Origin: Leptospiraceae bacterium
GTDB taxonomy: Bacteria > Spirochaetota > Leptospiria > Leptospirales > Leptonemataceae
Direction of reading: 5' to 3'
DNA length: 64,000 nt
Assembly: GCA_026418015.1 (NCBI GenBank)
Contig: JAOACE010000008.1
Coordinates: 186,001-250,000 of the forward strand
Positions 41,366 through 60,241 of the stretch are shown here, piece after piece; positions within the stretch are counted from its first letter, which is position 1, and each line of letters starts with the position of its first letter. The notes under the pieces are model-generated. The model saw only the letters and a program-made list of their open reading frames with translations. It was not told where the DNA came from and made no database searches. The position numbers and the translations under genes were made by a program.

Positions 41366-42520
41366 ATGAAAAGTTTTGTTTATTGTTGCCTTTTTTTTAT
41401 TTCTTTCAATCTTTATTCTAATCCATTTGAATTTAGTTTCGAACCTGATGATATCTTTATAGTGGATAAAATTCAAAAAATAACCTCGAACAAAAACCAA
41501 AGAGAAGAAAAAAATAGAATTCATCTTAATATAAAAGAAATTCAAGATAATGCATTTATATTTACGGGAAGTTTTACCACTTATAGTAGGATTTTACCAC
41601 AAGAAAAAACCTTTAAAAAAGAAGAAGATTACAACTCGGAATTTTCTATGATAAAAAATGGAGAGTATTTTGTAGATAGTCAATATAAATATCCCAACTT
41701 CCAAAGCATTCCTTCCTTTCCAGAAAACGTTAAAGAATTACCCAAAGAATGGAAAAAACCCGCAAAAGAAGTAATACATATTCCCGAAATCAACTTAAAA
41801 ATTATTGTTCCTTTTCTTGTGCAATATAAATACTTGGGAACCGAAGATAGAGTTTACCAAAATCAAACTATTCCTACTCATAAAATACAGTATGAATATG
41901 TTTTGAACCATAAAGTTACACCCGGAAATGGCCCAATCAAATGGATTCGGGGAAATACAAAAGGAATCATCTATTTTTCTTCGGATTTACACATTCCTAT
42001 TTATGATGAACAAAAATTAAATTATCAATTTGTGTTGCAAGATAATCGCGTATTAGAAGAAAATTTTTATATCCAAAGCTGGTATAAAAAAATCAAAAAA
42101 CTCAACAAAACTCAACTTGCAGAACGATTGAATAAAATCCAGAACCCTAATTTTACTGTAAACGAAACAGAGCAAGGTATAAGGCTAGACTTAAAAAATA
42201 TTTTGTTTGATTTTGATTCTTATACCTTAAAAGACGAAGCAAAACAAACCCTCGATGCAATCTACGAAATTTTAAAAGATCATCCCGATAGAGAGGTTCA
42301 AATTTCTGGACATACAGATAATATTGGTAAAGAAGATTACAATCTTGAACTTTCTGAACAAAGAGCAAAAGTAGTAGCAGAATATCTTTTACAAAAAGGC
42401 TTAAAAGAAGATCAGATTTCTTATAAAGGCTATGGTTCTAGTAAACCCATTGTTCCTAACGACTCTGCCGAAAATCGAGCCAAAAATAGACGTGTGGAAA
42501 TTCTTATCCTAACAGAATAA
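41366..42520 (+). CDS. OmpA-family lipid-free outer membrane protein
   Basis: 384 residues. A short signal peptide (MKSFVYCCLFFISFNLYSNP) is followed by an approximately 240-residue periplasmic domain of unknown fold. The C-terminal OmpA peptidoglycan-binding domain (about 275-384) contains ILFDFDSYTLKDEAKQTL, VQISGHTDNIGKEDYNLELS, the diaminopimelate-binding Asp and the Arg in AENRAKNRRVEI. It probably ties the outer membrane to peptidoglycan. In Leptospira such Loa22-like proteins are common, but the N-terminal region here is different. yidD begins 37 nt downstream. Confidence 0.85.
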   Translation: MKSFVYCCLFFISFNLYSNPFEFSFEPDDIFIVDKIQKITSNKNQREEKNRIHLNIKEIQDNAFIFTGSFTTYSRILPQEKTFKKEEDYNSEFSMIKNGEYFVDSQYKYPNFQSIPSFPENVKELPKEWKKPAKEVIHIPEINLKIIVPFLVQYKYLGTEDRVYQNQTIPTHKIQYEYVLNHKVTPGNGPIKWIRGNTKGIIYFSSDLHIPIYDEQKLNYQFVLQDNRVLEENFYIQSWYKKIKKLNKTQLAERLNKIQNPNFTVNETEQGIRLDLKNILFDFDSYTLKDEAKQTLDAIYEILKDHPDREVQISGHTDNIGKEDYNLELSEQRAKVVAEYLLQKGLKEDQISYKGYGSSKPIVPNDSAENRAKNRRVEILILTE

Positions 42521-53363: not shown

Positions 53364-53476
53364 TTATTTTAATTAATTACTATCCTGAAAATTTCGCATA
53401 GAATTTTTTGCTTCTATAACAATCTTTAAATAAGTGATTTGTCAATTATTTATTTTAATATATTTTATTTTTTCTA

Positions 53477-54027
53477 TGATAGTTTTTGCCAAAATAGAGT
53501 TATAAATTTATATGAGAGTCGATCAATACACAACAAAAAAATTTTCTTTTGTTTGTTTGAATTTAGAACCACAGCATTATGAATTCTTAAAAGAAATTGC
53601 CAACACCCGTTTTGATGGAAGCTCTTATCGTGCCATTTTTTATTTGTTGAATAAATACCTTCATCATCTTTATGAGATAAGAATTACACCATCAAAACTA
53701 ACAGAAACAGCAACCTATCAGCCCAGAACCAAACAATACAAGAGAAGAACCATCAAGATGAATCCCGTTTTATGGAGCAAGTTGTTCGAAACAAGGCATT
53801 TTGTAGGGTATTCAATTAGTGCAATGGTAAGAATTATGCTCGACTGGGAGATGCAATCTCAGGGATACGACATAATTCCATTGGTAGCATTGCCTCAGTT
53901 GCCAAGAAATGTTTTTGATCCTGCTTTGTCTGAACATTGGATAAATAATTATTCTTACAAGAAGCAAGGAATTTACGAATCAAGAGAAATTATTTGTAGT
54001 TTTTTGGATGAATTCGGTTGATAATAT
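53477..54027 (+). repeat. Direct repeat, copy 1 (DUF1564-like gene plus leader)
   Basis: About 550 bp highly similar to 59507-60057 in the same orientation. It covers about 35 nt of leader (TGATAGTTTTT ... ATAAATTTAT), the whole 510-bp gene and the first bases after the stop, after which the flanks diverge. Confidence 0.9.
53512..54021 (+). CDS. DUF1564-like protein, copy 1
   Basis: 169 residues, soluble and basic in the middle. LNLEPQHYEFLKEIA, then TATYQPRTKQYKRRTIKMNP and VLWSKLFETRHFVGYSISAM resemble the Leptospira paralogous family DUF1564 (LIPE-like N-terminal helix, YQ...K-R segment, then a V-W-x-x-L-x-x-x-x-x-x-G-x-S helix pair). The fold may be a ribbon-helix-helix-like DNA binder, but this is inference. 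It is 95% identical to a second copy at 59.5 kb (differences at about eight positions). Function unknown. TTGTCA and TATATT with a 14-nt spacer lie at 53439-53464. Confidence 0.6.
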   Translation: MRVDQYTTKKFSFVCLNLEPQHYEFLKEIANTRFDGSSYRAIFYLLNKYLHHLYEIRITPSKLTETATYQPRTKQYKRRTIKMNPVLWSKLFETRHFVGYSISAMVRIMLDWEMQSQGYDIIPLVALPQLPRNVFDPALSEHWINNYSYKKQGIYESREIICSFLDEFG

Positions 54028-54037
54028 AATTATTTTG

Positions 54038-54715: not shown

Positions 54716-54724
54716 TTGTATATT

Positions 54725-55624
54725 ATGAGATTGCAAAATCTTACAGAAAAGATTCAGCAAGTATTTCCCGAGCATCAGTCCAAGGTTCTGCAAGAAGTTC
54801 TTAATTTTATGGATGAGCTTGTTAAAGTAAGTGATTTTAATGAACTCAAATTAATCGTTAAGGAATTAGCAGAAGCTCAAAAACGAACCGAACAAAAGTT
54901 AGAAGAATTAACAGATGCTCAAAAACGAACCGAACAAAAGTTAGAAGAATTAACAGATGCTCAAAAACGAACCGAACAAAAGTTAGAAGAATTAACAGAT
55001 GCTCAAAAACGAACTGAACAAAAGTTAGAAGAACTAGCAGATGCTCAAAAAAGAACTGAACAAAAATTAGAAGAATTAGCAGATGCTCAAAAACGAACTG
55101 AACAAAAATTAGAAGAACTAGTAGAAGCTCAAAAACGAACTGAAGTAAGGTTCGAAGAATTAGCAGATGCTCAAAGAAAAACCGAAGAGAAGTTAGGAAA
55201 ATTGATAGAAGAGCACCAAACCACAAGACAAGAATTAGGTGGGTTATCTCATTCTTTTGGTTATTTGTTAGAAGATAGGGCATACAAAGGCCTACCTGCA
55301 ATATTAGAAAAACAATGGGGAATTAAAGTCAAAGAGCCTTTAAAAAGAGATATATTTCCTTATAAATGCGATAGGAAGTTAGAAATCAACATTATTGGTA
55401 AAGGCGAAAAAGATCAAAAAGAAATATGGATTATCGGAGAGTCAAAATCCCAACTAAAAAGAAAGCATGTAGATCAATTTATTCGAAAACAATATATATT
55501 TGAGGAACTTTTTCCTGGCGACAAGTTTTATTTAATGGTTACACATATGACCGATCCAGAAGTTAAAGCATATGCAGAAAAGCAAGGTATACGAGTATTT
55601 TACTCTTACGAATTTCACTTATAA
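54725..55624 (+). CDS. Coiled-coil repeat protein with PD-(D/E)XK-like C-terminus
   Basis: 299 residues from the ATG at 54725 (a TTG three codons earlier is also in frame). After a helical head (1-44) come eight 14-residue units, [14 protein letters not shown] and variants (45-156), forming a long two-heptad coiled coil. The C-terminal 120 residues ([18 protein letters not shown] ... YSYEFHL) resemble the PD-(D/E)XK-type domain that follows coiled coils in DUF3782-like proteins. The E-x-K pair is seen as IIGESKSQ, but the usual preceding Asp is Asn ([10 protein letters not shown]), so nuclease activity is uncertain. These proteins are common in thermophiles and cyanobacteria, and their function is unknown. 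Confidence 0.7.
54857..55192 (+). repeat. Eight tandem 42-bp repeats
   Basis: Eight in-frame 42-bp units encode the 14-residue coiled-coil repeat. Units 2-4 are nearly identical in DNA and the last two have drifted most, so copy number is likely to vary by slippage or recombination while keeping frame and heptad phase. Confidence 0.9.
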
Positions 55625-55847
55625 TAAAAAAATATTATCAATCAATCTATATTAAATATTAATAAAATAAATATATTATTTTTTATAAAATGATTTTAAT
55701 AGAATCATCAAAAACATTTTTATAAAGTGGATTTGCTCAAGATGAATTATTTAACCGATTATATTTTTTTAGAATCGATCATTTTAATAGAAATCCATTT
55801 AAAAATTTATATTGACATATTTTCGATTTTCTAGGATCTTGTATTTT

Positions 55848-56771
55848 GTGAAGTTAGCTCTTATTGGTGATGTTCATGGTTTTTTTGATGATTTCGATGT
55901 AGAATATTTTAATCAATCCGACTATGATTTTATTCTCTTTACGGGTGATGTTCCTGATTTTTTTCATTTGTCTAACAAAGCATACAAAAAGATTGCCTTG
56001 CTAAAAAAAAATGTATTTATGCAGTGGGGTAATCATGATGGGTTTAGTTTTTTAGAAGTTGTTGGAGAACTATTTGGTTGGTCGTATTTTAAAGTCGATT
56101 CCTCCAAAATTCCTGTAATAAAAAAAAGACTCGATACACTTAAAAAGCAATTAGGAAGTAATGTGATCAGCGGTGGATATAAAGCAACGCTACTTACAGA
56201 AAACTGTGCTTTGTTTATAGTTCGTCCTCATTCGATTGGAGGAAGTAGATTGGGTTACAAAGAGATTTTGCAAGACTCATACAATGTAAAGGATTTTCAA
56301 GATTCTTTTAATAAAATGAAAAATATCCTAGATCACTTTAAAACGGAGTTTCCCAAAGTGGATACACTCATTTTTTTAGGACATAATGGTCCTTATGGTT
56401 TAAGTAATGATCCCAGAGATGTTTGGGGCTGCGATTTTAAGCCAGAATTAGGAGATTTTGGGGATATAGACTTTCGTCAAATCATTGATTACGCAAAACA
56501 AAAGGGTTTTTTTGTACCCTTAGTAGTTGCTGGACATATGCATCATCGACTTTCTAAAAAAACCGAAAAATATCTAAGGAAAAAACAAGAAGATCTGCAA
56601 AATTATAGAGAAAGACAATCAATCACCCAAAAAGACGATACCTATTATGTAAATCCTGCAAAAGTTCCTAGAATCATTAAGCAAAATGGTGTGGTTTTAC
56701 ATTATCATGTTTTTGTAGAAATCTCTCAACACAATGTTTTAAAAATCGAAGAAAAATACGTCAAAAAATAA
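55848..56771 (+). CDS. Metallophosphoesterase, TIGR04168-like
   Basis: 307 residues from a GTG at 55848 (VKLALIGDVHGFFDDF); an upstream TTG frame start lacks the usual beginning. The dinuclear metal motifs are D-x-H in IGDVHG, FTGDVPDF, QWGNHDGF, LGHNGPYGLSN and AGHMHHRL. The segment GCDFKPELGDFGDIDFRQII between the last two resembles the plant and cyanobacterial TIGR04168 family, whose substrate is unknown. It is 5 nt upstream of the 634-residue gene, a likely two-gene operon. AGGAT upstream may be the ribosome site. Confidence 0.85.
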   Translation: MKLALIGDVHGFFDDFDVEYFNQSDYDFILFTGDVPDFFHLSNKAYKKIALLKKNVFMQWGNHDGFSFLEVVGELFGWSYFKVDSSKIPVIKKRLDTLKKQLGSNVISGGYKATLLTENCALFIVRPHSIGGSRLGYKEILQDSYNVKDFQDSFNKMKNILDHFKTEFPKVDTLIFLGHNGPYGLSNDPRDVWGCDFKPELGDFGDIDFRQIIDYAKQKGFFVPLVVAGHMHHRLSKKTEKYLRKKQEDLQNYRERQSITQKDDTYYVNPAKVPRIIKQNGVVLHYHVFVEISQHNVLKIEEKYVKK

Positions 56772-56776
56772 ATAGT

Positions 56777-58681
56777 ATGAAAGATTTTCTAACTTCTTTT
56801 GAATTGAGCTCTGCTCTATTAGGATTAAATCCCTCCATCGAAAAAGATATTCGTTTGATTGAACAAGCAACTACTGCAACATTACATCTAACACAATCCC
56901 CTAAAAGTTTACGAACATTGGATAGTTTACAACATATCGACGAAAACGTATTAAAAATATTAAAAAATCGTGGTGTTCTTACTTCGTATGAATATTTATC
57001 TTTCGAAAACAATCAACTCTCTAAAAAGATTGTTTTAATACGTCCAAATTCATTAAAAATAGATGATGTCGAAAGAATCAAAAAACTTTGTGACGAAAGC
57101 TCTGCTATATCCTTTTTAAATTATTTATATTTAAAAGAAAAGCGATGGATACAAGAAAATCAAAAGTTAGGCGAGCAAATAAAAGAAAATATCGTTTATT
57201 CTAAAGAAATTAATCGAAGTACAATTTTGGATATGATTTTACGCTTCGAAACCTATTCCATCGAATCTCATCTTGATATTTATGATTTAGAAAAAAGAAT
57301 CTTATTATTTATAATCCAAAAACTAGAAAATTCCTCCCAAGAAGTTTATAATTATTTTATTAACAACAAAGAATTACCCGAAGAAGTAAAACAGTTTTTA
57401 CTTGATCGCGGAGATTTACCTTTATTGGTTTCTATTAGAGAAGAGTTTCATTTACTGTTTCCTAATTATAGATATTATGTTCATGTGGACGAAGAAGGAA
57501 ATTTAAAAATTCTTAAAACAGAGTTAGATTACTTAAAAGATGCAGCAAAAGAAATTTTTTATCGTTTAGCAAAATTTTTATCTCCAGAAAAGGATTACGA
57601 AAATGCAAACTTTAACGATTATTATTTTTTGTTCTCTCAGCATCCTTCTTTACAATCCAACGATACATGGCCAAATCTATTTAGTTTTATAAATAGCGTA
57701 GAAAAATTGATCAAATTGTGCGAAAATCTAGATAACCTAAAAAAAGATATTCTTATAGAAAATTATTTAAATGAATTTATAAAAAATCTTAATATGAACT
57801 TTGAACCATACTTTTTTTCTCTATCGAATTTCCAGATCCCCGATATGTTAAAAAAATATATTAATGAACAAGAAAGAGAAAAAATTTATAAAATTATTGT
57901 AGAAAAATTATCAAAAAACAAAGAACTGATTGTTTATAGATCAAAATTGAACCCTACCGAGCAAGGTTATTATGTAATTTTTAAATATAACATACCCAAA
58001 GCTTTTATAGAAAATGCAAATCGCCGTAGTTTTATACACTTGATGTTGAAAAATTCTGGTTATCCATCAGGAATATATGATTTTGTCTTAGATACCACAA
58101 ATAAAAGTTTACCTGATTTATTATTAAAAGAACAACAACAATTGAATAAAGCTATCAAAGAATGGGAAAAAGAAATCGAAAAGAAAAACAAAAAAGGAGT
58201 CTTGCAAATTATTTTTGAATGGATTCTAAAACTCTTAGGAATTTTAAAAGATACTTCTATCAAAGAACAAGTAATAAAAGAAACCTTAAAAGAAGATAAT
58301 GTAAGTATATCCAGATCAAAAAAAACTACTTATCGAGAATATATACCAGAATATCGTTTAAAAAAGATTCCCGAAAAAATCGAAAAAGCAATTGGTTTTA
58401 TCGAACGCCAGTATAATGGATTAATTTGGATAGATGAACTTTCATATGTGTTAGAGTTTAAAGATCTAGAGAGACTCAATTCGATTATTTATTACGATAA
58501 AGATCAGCGATTCTTAGAAATAAAGCCATTAAAAAATATTAAGCCATTGTTTATAAGAAAAGAAAACCTTCAAAATCAGCAATGGATACAACAAACCATC
58601 GATTTTTTAAAAAATAGCTCTAACTTACCCCATCAAGTTGCTTTATTAGAATTTTTAGAAAATTATAAAACCAATTTATAA
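56777..58681 (+). CDS. Protein of unknown function, partner of the metallophosphoesterase
   Basis: 634 residues, no signal peptide. One amphipathic hydrophobic stretch near residue 475 (VLQIIFEWILKLLGIL) follows a strongly charged coil (LNKAIKEWEKEIEKKNKKG). The N-terminal 100 residues and a C-terminal winged-looking part (EYRLKKIPEKIEKAIGFIER) are folded and polar. I see no nucleotide-binding or catalytic motif and do not recognise the family. The 5-nt spacing to the metallophosphoesterase gene argues they act together. The 3' end faces the transglutaminase-like gene 6 nt away. Confidence 0.6.
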   Translation: MKDFLTSFELSSALLGLNPSIEKDIRLIEQATTATLHLTQSPKSLRTLDSLQHIDENVLKILKNRGVLTSYEYLSFENNQLSKKIVLIRPNSLKIDDVERIKKLCDESSAISFLNYLYLKEKRWIQENQKLGEQIKENIVYSKEINRSTILDMILRFETYSIESHLDIYDLEKRILLFIIQKLENSSQEVYNYFINNKELPEEVKQFLLDRGDLPLLVSIREEFHLLFPNYRYYVHVDEEGNLKILKTELDYLKDAAKEIFYRLAKFLSPEKDYENANFNDYYFLFSQHPSLQSNDTWPNLFSFINSVEKLIKLCENLDNLKKDILIENYLNEFIKNLNMNFEPYFFSLSNFQIPDMLKKYINEQEREKIYKIIVEKLSKNKELIVYRSKLNPTEQGYYVIFKYNIPKAFIENANRRSFIHLMLKNSGYPSGIYDFVLDTTNKSLPDLLLKEQQQLNKAIKEWEKEIEKKNKKGVLQIIFEWILKLLGILKDTSIKEQVIKETLKEDNVSISRSKKTTYREYIPEYRLKKIPEKIEKAIGFIERQYNGLIWIDELSYVLEFKDLERLNSIIYYDKDQRFLEIKPLKNIKPLFIRKENLQNQQWIQQTIDFLKNSSNLPHQVALLEFLENYKTNL

Positions 58682-58687
58682 AATAAA

Positions 58688-59380
58688 TTAAACTTCGTTT
58701 CTTAAATCCCCCTGAACGATTTGCACTTTATTTTTTTTCCAAAGATGGGGATAGGATTCTTGTAGACCTTTAATTAAATATTCAAAAGGAAAATCGGAAA
58801 AGCTACCTCTTTCGTGTACATATTCCATGAATTTTCTTCCTTCTTTATCGAAGGGATGAAAGATACTATCATTTTCTCCATCGAAATCCAAAGGATGAAC
58901 ATTGAACTTTTCGCATAAATATTTATCAAATGCTGGGGTTGCCTTGATCCATTTTCCCATGGTGGGATCTTCTTTATAAACATAAATTTCACTATAACCA
59001 TGGAAAGCAAAAATTTCTGATTGCAAGAATTCTATTAGCCTTTTACTCGATAAATGATTTTTTACATCTGCAAAACCAATCTTAGCGGGAAACCCTAATT
59101 TCCTTGCAATTGTGGTAAAAAGAATTGCTTTAGGTATACAATAAGTTTTTTTAAAATCAATGATATTCGAAGCTTTGTAATCATGTCTATTGACTTTAAA
59201 ATTGTAAGGATTGTATAAAATCGTATCTCTAACAATATAGTAAAAATCAATTAAATTTAAAAAATTACTTTTTTCTGGGTTATAATGCTTTTCGAAATAT
59301 TGTTGAAATTTGATAGATTCATAATCAAAAAAATAGGTAGGCTTTATAAGTTCTTGCAATTCTTGTGTCAATTGTTTCAT
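58688..59380 (-). CDS. Transglutaminase-like protein
   Basis: 230 residues. The papain-like triad is visible: Cys in FKKTYCIPKAILFTTIARKLG, His in FAFHGYSEIYVYKE and Asp in WIKATPAFDKYLC. The spacing matches bacterial transglut_core proteins, which act as proteases or amidases more often than cross-linkers. No signal peptide is seen, so it is probably cytoplasmic. It stands alone, convergent with the 634-residue gene, inside the segment bounded by the two direct repeats. Confidence 0.8.
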   Translation of the reverse strand: MKQLTQELQELIKPTYFFDYESIKFQQYFEKHYNPEKSNFLNLIDFYYIVRDTILYNPYNFKVNRHDYKASNIIDFKKTYCIPKAILFTTIARKLGFPAKIGFADVKNHLSSKRLIEFLQSEIFAFHGYSEIYVYKEDPTMGKWIKATPAFDKYLCEKFNVHPLDFDGENDSIFHPFDKEGRKFMEYVHERGSFSDFPFEYLIKGLQESYPHLWKKNKVQIVQGDLRNEV

Positions 59381-59506
59381 AATTCTAGGATAAAAAAATT
59401 GATTAAAAAGTCAATTTTTTATTGCTTTCCTGAATAATTTTTGCTGTTATACGATTTTGATGAATCTATCTATCAAGTATAATATTTAATAAAATATATT
59501 TTTGTA

Positions 59507-60057
59507 TGATAGTTTTTCGCAAAAAAGAGATATAAATTTATATGAGAGTCGATCAATACACAACAAAAAAATTTTCTTCTGTTTGTTTGAATTTAGAACC
59601 ACAGCATTATGAATTCTTAAAAGAAATTGCCAACACCCGTTTTGATGGCAGTTCTTATCGTGCCATTTTTTATTTATTAAACAAATATCTGTATCATCTT
59701 TATGAGATAAGAATTACACCATCAAAACTAACAGAAACAGCAACCTATCAGCCCAGAACCAAACAATACAAGAGAAGAACCATCAAGATGAATCCCGTTT
59801 TATGGAGCAAGTTGTTCGAAACAAGACATTTTGTGGGGTATTCAATTAGTGCAATGTTAAGAATTATGATAGAATGGGAGATGCAATCTCAGGGATACGA
59901 CATAATTCCCTTGGTAGCATTGCCGCAATTGCCAAGAAATGTTTTTGATCCTGCTTTGCCTGAACATTGGATAAATAATTATTCTTACGAAAAGCAAGGA
60001 AGTTACGAATCAAGAGAAATTATTTGTAGTTTTTTGGATGAATTCGGTTGATAATAT
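59507..60057 (+). repeat. Direct repeat, copy 2
   Basis: Second copy of the about 550-bp unit at 53477-54027, same orientation, 6.03 kb downstream. Similarity begins about 35 nt before the gene and ends just after its stop. Confidence 0.9.
59542..60051 (+). CDS. DUF1564-like protein, copy 2
   Basis: 169 residues, identical to the copy at 53512-54021 except for about eight substitutions (for example F13S, H51Y, and LD to IE in the RIM-x-x-WEM helix). Both copies are intact and the changes are mostly conservative, which suggests both are under selection or the duplication is recent. The gene ends about 190 bp from a tRNA pair. Confidence 0.6.
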   Translation: MRVDQYTTKKFSSVCLNLEPQHYEFLKEIANTRFDGSSYRAIFYLLNKYLYHLYEIRITPSKLTETATYQPRTKQYKRRTIKMNPVLWSKLFETRHFVGYSISAMLRIMIEWEMQSQGYDIIPLVALPQLPRNVFDPALPEHWINNYSYEKQGSYESREIICSFLDEFG

Positions 60058-60241
60058 ATTAATTTTATAAATAATCATTAATTTTTGGGTGAATTTTTTC
60101 CATATTTTGTTTTTAGCTCTCTCTTCACAATAAAAAGTATTATTCTCTTAAAAATCTGAATTTTTTCTATGTTTAGCAAATTTGAAATTAGACGTACAAT
60201 TTCAAACTTTCCATCGGAGATTTTTTTTATTAAAAAAAAAG

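Follow-up and report, generated by a model that had tools for sequence, protein, structure and literature searches.

TIGR04168 is a protein model of unknown function, annotated as a calcineurin-like phosphoesterase, and a full-text search for its name found no paper. The wider Metallophos superfamily, PF00149, is marked by metal-ligand motifs that we take to be GDxH, GDxx, GN[HW]D, GH(NG) and GHxH. The window studied here is a stretch of 64,000 nucleotides from the 2.9 Mb assembly of a Leptospiraceae bacterium (GCA_026418015.1, contig JAOACE010000008.1, positions 186,001 to 250,000; G000:C17:186001-250000 in our own labels for genomes and contigs). It holds the gene for a metallophosphoesterase, called MPE below, which has the fold and motif order of TIGR04168, scores below that model's cut-off and is coupled to the gene for a 634-residue protein of an unannotated family, called B. 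MPE and B are a real conserved pair for which we found neither a family model nor a paper: literature searches on TIGR04168, on metallophosphoesterases together with winged helices and on Leptospira or spirochaete phosphoesterases turned up no account of a unit like this. Because B is conserved and sits so close to MPE, it offers a handle on the function of TIGR04168-like proteins.

Results

The MPE and B genes

Both open reading frames (ORFs) are intact in the window:

55848..56771, forward strand: MPE, calcineurin-like metallophosphoesterase of 307 aa with a GTG start (PF00149, TIGR04168-like)
56777..58681, forward strand: B, unannotated-family protein of 634 aa with an ATG start (19 aligned homologues, including the window protein)

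The MPE stop codon ends at 56771 and the ATG of B is at 56777, leaving a gap of 5 nt. A longer mechanical ORF around MPE runs from a TTG (55812-56771) and has GTG 55848 inside it. The GTG is preferred because homologues begin at the equivalent residue: the N-terminus it gives, MKLALIGDVHG, aligns with the N-termini of MPE homologues.

Conservation of the pair

Among 100 genomes searched, B occurs in 19 (its own included), which are 18 of the 22 genomes in its family and one of eight in the sister family, and MPE occurs in 31. Every one of the 19 genomes with B also has MPE, none has B without it, and 12 have MPE without B; in the 48 genomes of the class this co-occurrence has a Fisher p of 2e-5, with kinship ignored. 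The two genes are adjacent and co-directional in 11 of the B-bearing genomes, drawn from six genera, and in nine of these, from four genera, the spacing lies between -4 and +5 nt while most flanking genes differ. Start and stop overlap by 4 nt in G002, G003, G006 and G008, the gap is 3 nt in G004, G016, G018 and G020 as it is 5 nt in the window, and the junction is about 92 nt in G011 and about 102 nt in G014 (junction starts were picked by eye). MPE and B lie on separate contigs in G001, G005, G007, G015, G017, G019 and G024 and about 4 kb apart in G009. The B gene of G001 is on another contig from its MPE, which has upstream of it the same P-type ATPase family as the MPE of G002, an arrangement that looks like an older unit that has come apart.

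On the B tree the adjacency state changes at least 5 times, and adjacency is found on both sides of the deepest fork of the family (support 92 and 81). Distances between MPE proteins track those between B proteins (Mantel r 0.72, reached in 0 of 5000 permutations) over 16 of the 19 genomes, G009, G011 and G020 having been dropped from the test. As judged from these sequence comparisons, the pair looks to have been inherited mainly vertically.

Outside the family, 11 MPE contexts (G047 was left out, and the G029 contig ends within MPE) have no B-profile match beside MPE. The context set also took in G013, inside the family, and its only B-like gene, in G023, is in a region without MPE.

The phosphoesterase

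MPE passes the gathering threshold of PF00149, with 53.2 bits over a cut-off of 21.5 (E 6.5e-14). Its alignment to TIGR04168 spans positions 5-257 of 269 at E 7e-39 and scores 133.8 bits, under the curated cut-off of 200, which was reached in none of the 61 genomes searched; among 14 control genomes the model matched in Synechococcus elongatus and Deinobacterium chartae, above the cut-off in one of the two. D8, H10, D34, N62, H179, H230 and H232, the metal-ligand residues, do not vary in 20 aligned proteins, which represent 20 of the 33 matching places found in the genome search, and because these seven canonical positions are invariant MPE is probably active. The sequence of MPE does not reveal its substrate class. 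A sequence search of the PDB with MPE returned nothing at E 0.01, and MPE matches the phage-protein metallo-phosphoesterase family phrog_1649 at E 6e-8. The MPE match of G009 has one in-frame TAA in the genome search and none over the domain in the TIGR04168 search. In a quick tree the stem branch of MPE in the window's genus is long (2.37 changes per column), perhaps reflecting a change of constraint.

Sequence and distribution of B

Searches of Pfam, NCBIfam, PHROGs and PADLOC found no model for the window protein. Any family that was hit among the 19 aligned homologues was hit by two of them at most, and a PDB sequence search gave a best E of 0.2 for B, which is not significant, and nothing for the B profile. 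B is single-copy by profile and its identity across the alignment is 26-63%. In the nearest pair of genes, differences cluster at codon position 3 (0.47, as against 0.29 at position 1 and 0.16 at position 2), which together with the homologues marks B as more than a chance ORF. A profile search across 392 genomes of the phylum recovered these 19 as strong matches and added 6 weak ones, and the four family genomes lacking B are 81, 76, 91 and 77% complete. Scanning genomes with one peptide pattern gave 9 relatives among 47 matches, which does not settle absence outside spirochaetes, and the same kind of scan in viral contigs gave 21 pattern matches and no relative, a single-protein query reaching close relatives only.

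The closest named relative found is in the Leptospiraceae metagenome-assembled genome (MAG) KatS3mg129, at 63% identity. One contig (L066) of a MAG titled Candidatus Sericytochromatia matches a KatS3mg129 contig at 100% identity across 12,430 bases, and the title is probably a binning error. Borrelia BB0236, presumably the flagellar collar protein FlcA, is similar in size to B, an idea that was dropped with no sequence comparison.

Predicted structure of B

The AlphaFold2 model of B was built on 10 rows, 9 of them distinct (L066 and L067 have identical DNA), and reached a pLDDT of 81.0 and a pTM of 0.61. A helix-helix-helix-hairpin pattern recurs in it at about residues 1-91, 301-405 and 531-600, and the parts of the protein that matter below are these:

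56777..57052, forward strand: module 1 of B, residues 1-92, winged-helix-like; DSSP H-H-H-E-E, ending in a wing and an RPxSLK motif
57677..57991, forward strand: module 3 of B, residues 301-405, winged-helix-like; SelB fragment at Z 5.6 in the whole model
57983..58096, forward strand: most conserved core of B, residues 403-440; N..AFI.....R...H...K......GIYD, basic in every homologue
58193..58306, forward strand: hydrophobic, amphipathic-looking helix of B, residues 473-510; [GS][LVI]Fx.hh..hh.LhG
58367..58576, forward strand: C-terminal winged-helix-like module of B, residues 531-600; most of the Z 5-6 rows of the structural comparison

Module 1 resembles chain O of RNA polymerase III and TFIIE at Z 5.0-5.5. 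A fragment model of module 3 has a top Z of 4.7, with many winged helices (SelB, ScpA, TFIIE, FoxO and MarR) and some other folds among its rows, and the C-terminal module matches DsrD, STK19, MarR, ESCRT-II and the N-terminal domains of O-methyltransferases; the winged-helix labels of these matches are in part our own presumption. Chain O of RNA polymerase III, which we take to be C82/RPC3, fills 8 of the first 12 rows of a Foldseek search with the B model, with a best E of 7e-4 and TM-scores of about 0.1, and a BFVD fold search found none at E <= 0.001.

Residues N405, F410, R417, G432, I433 and Y434 of the core are invariant among the 19 aligned proteins, and its net charge is +2 to +6 in all of them. 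The modules around it differ in charge: averaged across homologues, module 1 has -5.4 (+1 in the window) and the C-terminal module -1.7 (0 in the window). In 11 of the 19 proteins the peak of hydrophobicity, taken over 18 residues, falls in the helix at 473-510.

Related large proteins of spirochaetes

Other large proteins resemble parts of B. A 625-aa stretch of a G023 protein used as query found a relative, here called L060-type, in 29 of 61 genomes (21 of 22 in the family and 8 of 8 in the sister family, making 29 of 30 for the order). Proteins of a second, A5-type (~612 aa, L117-L146) are present in 42 of 247 genomes of the phylum, and the member tested has no Pfam or NCBIfam model above cut-off. 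The L060-type protein of the window's own genome, unannotated and 636 aa long, lies at G000:C3:27489-29303 (L159:7469-9379, reverse strand), near UbiE and FAD-binding genes. A third paralogue, of 719 aa (L166:7011-9170 in G004; also in G016, G018 and G020), gives weak matches to the L060 query, and the G004 protein matches nothing in Pfam or NCBIfam.

B matches the L060-type profile locally at E 2.4e-4, in the wing and helix after module 1, and the A5-type profile at E 5.1e-5 in that wing and at E 5.4e-6 in the hydrophobic helix; hhalign gives these local matches probabilities of 44-86%. The B profile, run against 206 ORFs in 14 regions around L060- and A5-type genes, hits 6 at E 0.01: five are proteins of these two types and the sixth is a 650-aa ORF in G036. 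None of the 206 is an MPE. The neighbours of the paralogues (10 proteins, among them pyruvate kinase, UbiE, FAD-binding, HisS-like and radical SAM proteins) have no common theme.

Surroundings of the pair

On one side the pair is flanked by an ileS-like tRNA synthetase gene and a GGDEF-EAL gene, and on the other by a transglutaminase-like gene, tRNA-Glu/Lys, cheW and thrB; within about 20 kb the flanks also hold ApbC-like, tetrapyrrole-methylase-like and yidD genes. The immediate neighbour downstream is convergent:

58688..59380, reverse strand: transglutaminase-core-like protein (PF01841, 32.8 bits; cluster c9)

Cluster c9 is found in the neighbourhoods of G000, G003 and G008, near the pair in G003 and adjoining it in G008, and was rejected as a member of the unit, being common to two genera only. 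The second most widespread family in the fetched neighbourhoods is a SpoIIE-like cluster, c3, present in four genera. A SpoIIE-domain phosphatase lies directly downstream of B at L089:7106-8623 (G007) and L091:1008-2387 (G006), and the cluster adjoins MPE in G004, G016 and G018 and stands some genes off in G003. It was rejected as a third member because each of six genomes searched holds 23-40 SpoIIE matches, so that the adjacency is likely due to chance. The ORF caller used for neighbourhoods drops overlapping ORFs, and MPE, missing from the listings of L078, L097 and L086, was placed by match coordinates.

The sequence-only reading of this DNA, an earlier interpretation made before any search, had set the pair in a repeat-bounded accessory block beside defence debris. 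The repeats are real: those at 53469 and 59499 are 95% identical over 300 nt, and they belong to a dispersed unit of 0.58 kb (53454-54036 and 59485-60066, forward strand; copies 94% identical) made of an upstream region and one 169-aa gene, DUF1564-like below cut-off. They do not delimit an accessory block. Matches to the 169-aa family number 45 in the window's genome and 54, 16 and 4 in its genus mates G003, G001 and G002, with none in 27 further genomes, and the flanking repeats are copies of a genus-specific dispersed gene family, while the pair itself is carried by 18 of 22 family genomes. Inspection by eye of four copies of the unit showed no terminal inverted repeats. The defence debris did not materialise either: ten proteins encoded between 41 and 59 kb were compared with the PADLOC models, and neither MPE nor B had a match at E 0.01; the others gave coiled-coil cross-matches, weaker matches and a single strong one, of a 384-aa OmpA-domain protein (41366-42520, forward strand) to ZorB models at E 1.4e-18, which is likely due to a shared OmpA/MotB domain, to judge by its sequence. 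A 302-aa coiled-coil ORF at 54716-55624 (forward strand) carries a 42-nt (14-aa) tandem repeat.

Discussion

The core of the sequence-only reading fares better than its setting. The spacing of the pair is as it described, its 634-residue partner without recognisable motifs has no Pfam or NCBIfam family and matched no known housekeeping family, the two genes co-occur elsewhere and are neighbours in other genera, and its proposal of an undescribed two-gene unit agrees with the literature searches. Neither of the two outcomes that it had named as refuting it came about. Its assignment of MPE to TIGR04168 holds as a likeness and not as membership, and the structure search that it proposed for the partner yielded winged-helix-like matches at Z of about 4-6, which is below the level of caution of the tool. 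An accessory or defence-like character is contradicted by a pair that is widespread in the family, single-copy by profile, mainly vertical and flanked by housekeeping genes.

The conservation of the gene pair itself is near certain. What it does is a matter of degree, and our preferred account, held tentatively and at somewhat short of even odds, is that of a two-subunit housekeeping phosphoesterase in which MPE is the enzyme and B a targeting or regulatory scaffold. The genes would form a mainly vertical, tightly spaced housekeeping operon of Leptospirales-like spirochaetes. MPE would be the catalytic subunit, a dinuclear-metal phosphoesterase, and B its cognate, mostly non-catalytic partner, a multi-module scaffold of winged-helix type with a hydrophobic, amphipathic-looking helix, which would bind MPE and target or regulate it, perhaps on the inner side of the cytoplasmic membrane. 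We favour this role for B because in the genomes searched it never occurs apart from MPE, which does occur without B, and because the average charge of its modules is not basic; neutral-to-acidic modules together with a basic core would favour protein scaffolding over binding of nucleic acid. The physical interaction of MPE with B, the membrane targeting and the choice of scaffolding over DNA binding are all things that we infer.

Several observations weigh against this account. MPE and B are non-adjacent in 8 of the 19 B-bearing genomes, so their coupling is not essential. Their trees differ at deep forks, congruent trees would be expected of any two vertically inherited genes, such that correlation alone does not show co-evolution, and local synteny across genera holds for other genes too, as in the L060-type neighbourhood. 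The helix at 473-510 has the strongest hydrophobic moment in just 4 of the 19 homologues and is modelled at a pLDDT under 60, and module 1 of the window protein, at +1, is itself not acidic. The structural matches of B are weak, with Z at most 6.3 where the tool advises caution below 8; Foldseek on the fragment 141-440 gave a best E of 0.22, and none of the winged-helix matches covers module 2 (about 147-245). The recurrence of one pattern along the model suggests that B consists of several winged-helix-like modules, a reading that rests on consistency and falls short of proof because of these Z values.

It is rather unlikely, though still the strongest of the competing explanations, that MPE and B are separate housekeeping genes that share a transcript by chance, their co-conservation reflecting vertical inheritance and co-regulation with no joint function. 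This would account for the genomes in which the genes stand apart, for the 12 in which MPE does without B and for the lack of a B-profile match beside MPE in the 11 non-family contexts; it sits poorly with a start-stop overlap or +3/+5 spacing that is kept in nine of the 11 adjacent cases, over four genera, though most flanks turn over, and with the fact that B is not seen without MPE. B could instead be a nucleic-acid-binding tandem winged-helix protein, associated with transcription, RNA or the ribosome, whose partner MPE processes a nucleotide or a bound nucleic-acid end. The winged-helix-like matches at residues 1-91, 325-405 and 532-599, the prominence of chain O of RNA polymerase III in the Foldseek rows, the SelB RNA-binding fragments among the structural matches and the conserved basic core all point that way, yet winged helices are common protein-interaction modules, TM-scores to RNA polymerase III chains are about 0.1, the mean charge of modules 1 and 4 is neutral or acidic and no obvious nucleic-acid-processing gene is found among the annotated neighbours of the pair, and we consider this unlikely. 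That the two genes form an anti-phage or toxin-antitoxin system within an accessory island, as two adjacent genes of unknown role with repeats on both sides and a phrog_1649 match possible for any superfamily member might suggest, is very unlikely for a mainly vertical pair, single-copy by profile, present in 18 of 22 family genomes, with housekeeping flanks, repeats that are a dispersed gene family, no PADLOC match for either protein and no B relative in viral contigs (one scan, close relatives only).

The two-subunit phosphoesterase that we prefer may also be part of something larger. The local profile matches are suggestive of a single superfamily that takes in B, the L060-type and the A5-type, a grouping against which it counts that global profile alignment of B with the L060- and A5-types fails and that these two types match each other at just E 0.042. 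A bolder proposal, and one that we consider improbable, is that B represents one lineage of a spirochaete family that spans the phylum, lacks annotation and is made up of large proteins with several winged helices in an RPC3/C82-like modular layout. Such a family would be a core gene with paralogues, one of which would have become, in the Leptospirales, a dedicated subunit of a TIGR04168-like phosphoesterase and so have given rise to a new membrane-associated regulatory complex. If true, B would open up a spirochaete family of the whole phylum, a larger gain than the pair alone; for the large unannotated spirochaete proteins to which B points, the members tested gave no confident model in Pfam or NCBIfam.

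Set beside known systems, MPE goes with PF00149, standing above that cut-off with its metal-ligand residues invariant, and it differs from TIGR04168 in its score and in its coupling to B. The L060-type, which is the Leptospirales paralogue, the A5-type and the paralogue of 718-722 aa in genus g2 are, at 600-720 aa, similar to B in length; they are related to it by weak local matches only, and the surroundings of the L060- and A5-types hold no MPE. Multi-winged-helix scaffolds such as RPC3/C82 (chain O) have no significant sequence similarity to B and superpose well on single modules only (Z about 4-6, overall TM about 0.1), but B, as modelled, would likewise consist of several winged-helix-like modules arranged around long helices, as do RPC3/C82, TFIIE, ESCRT-II and the C-terminal domain of SelB.

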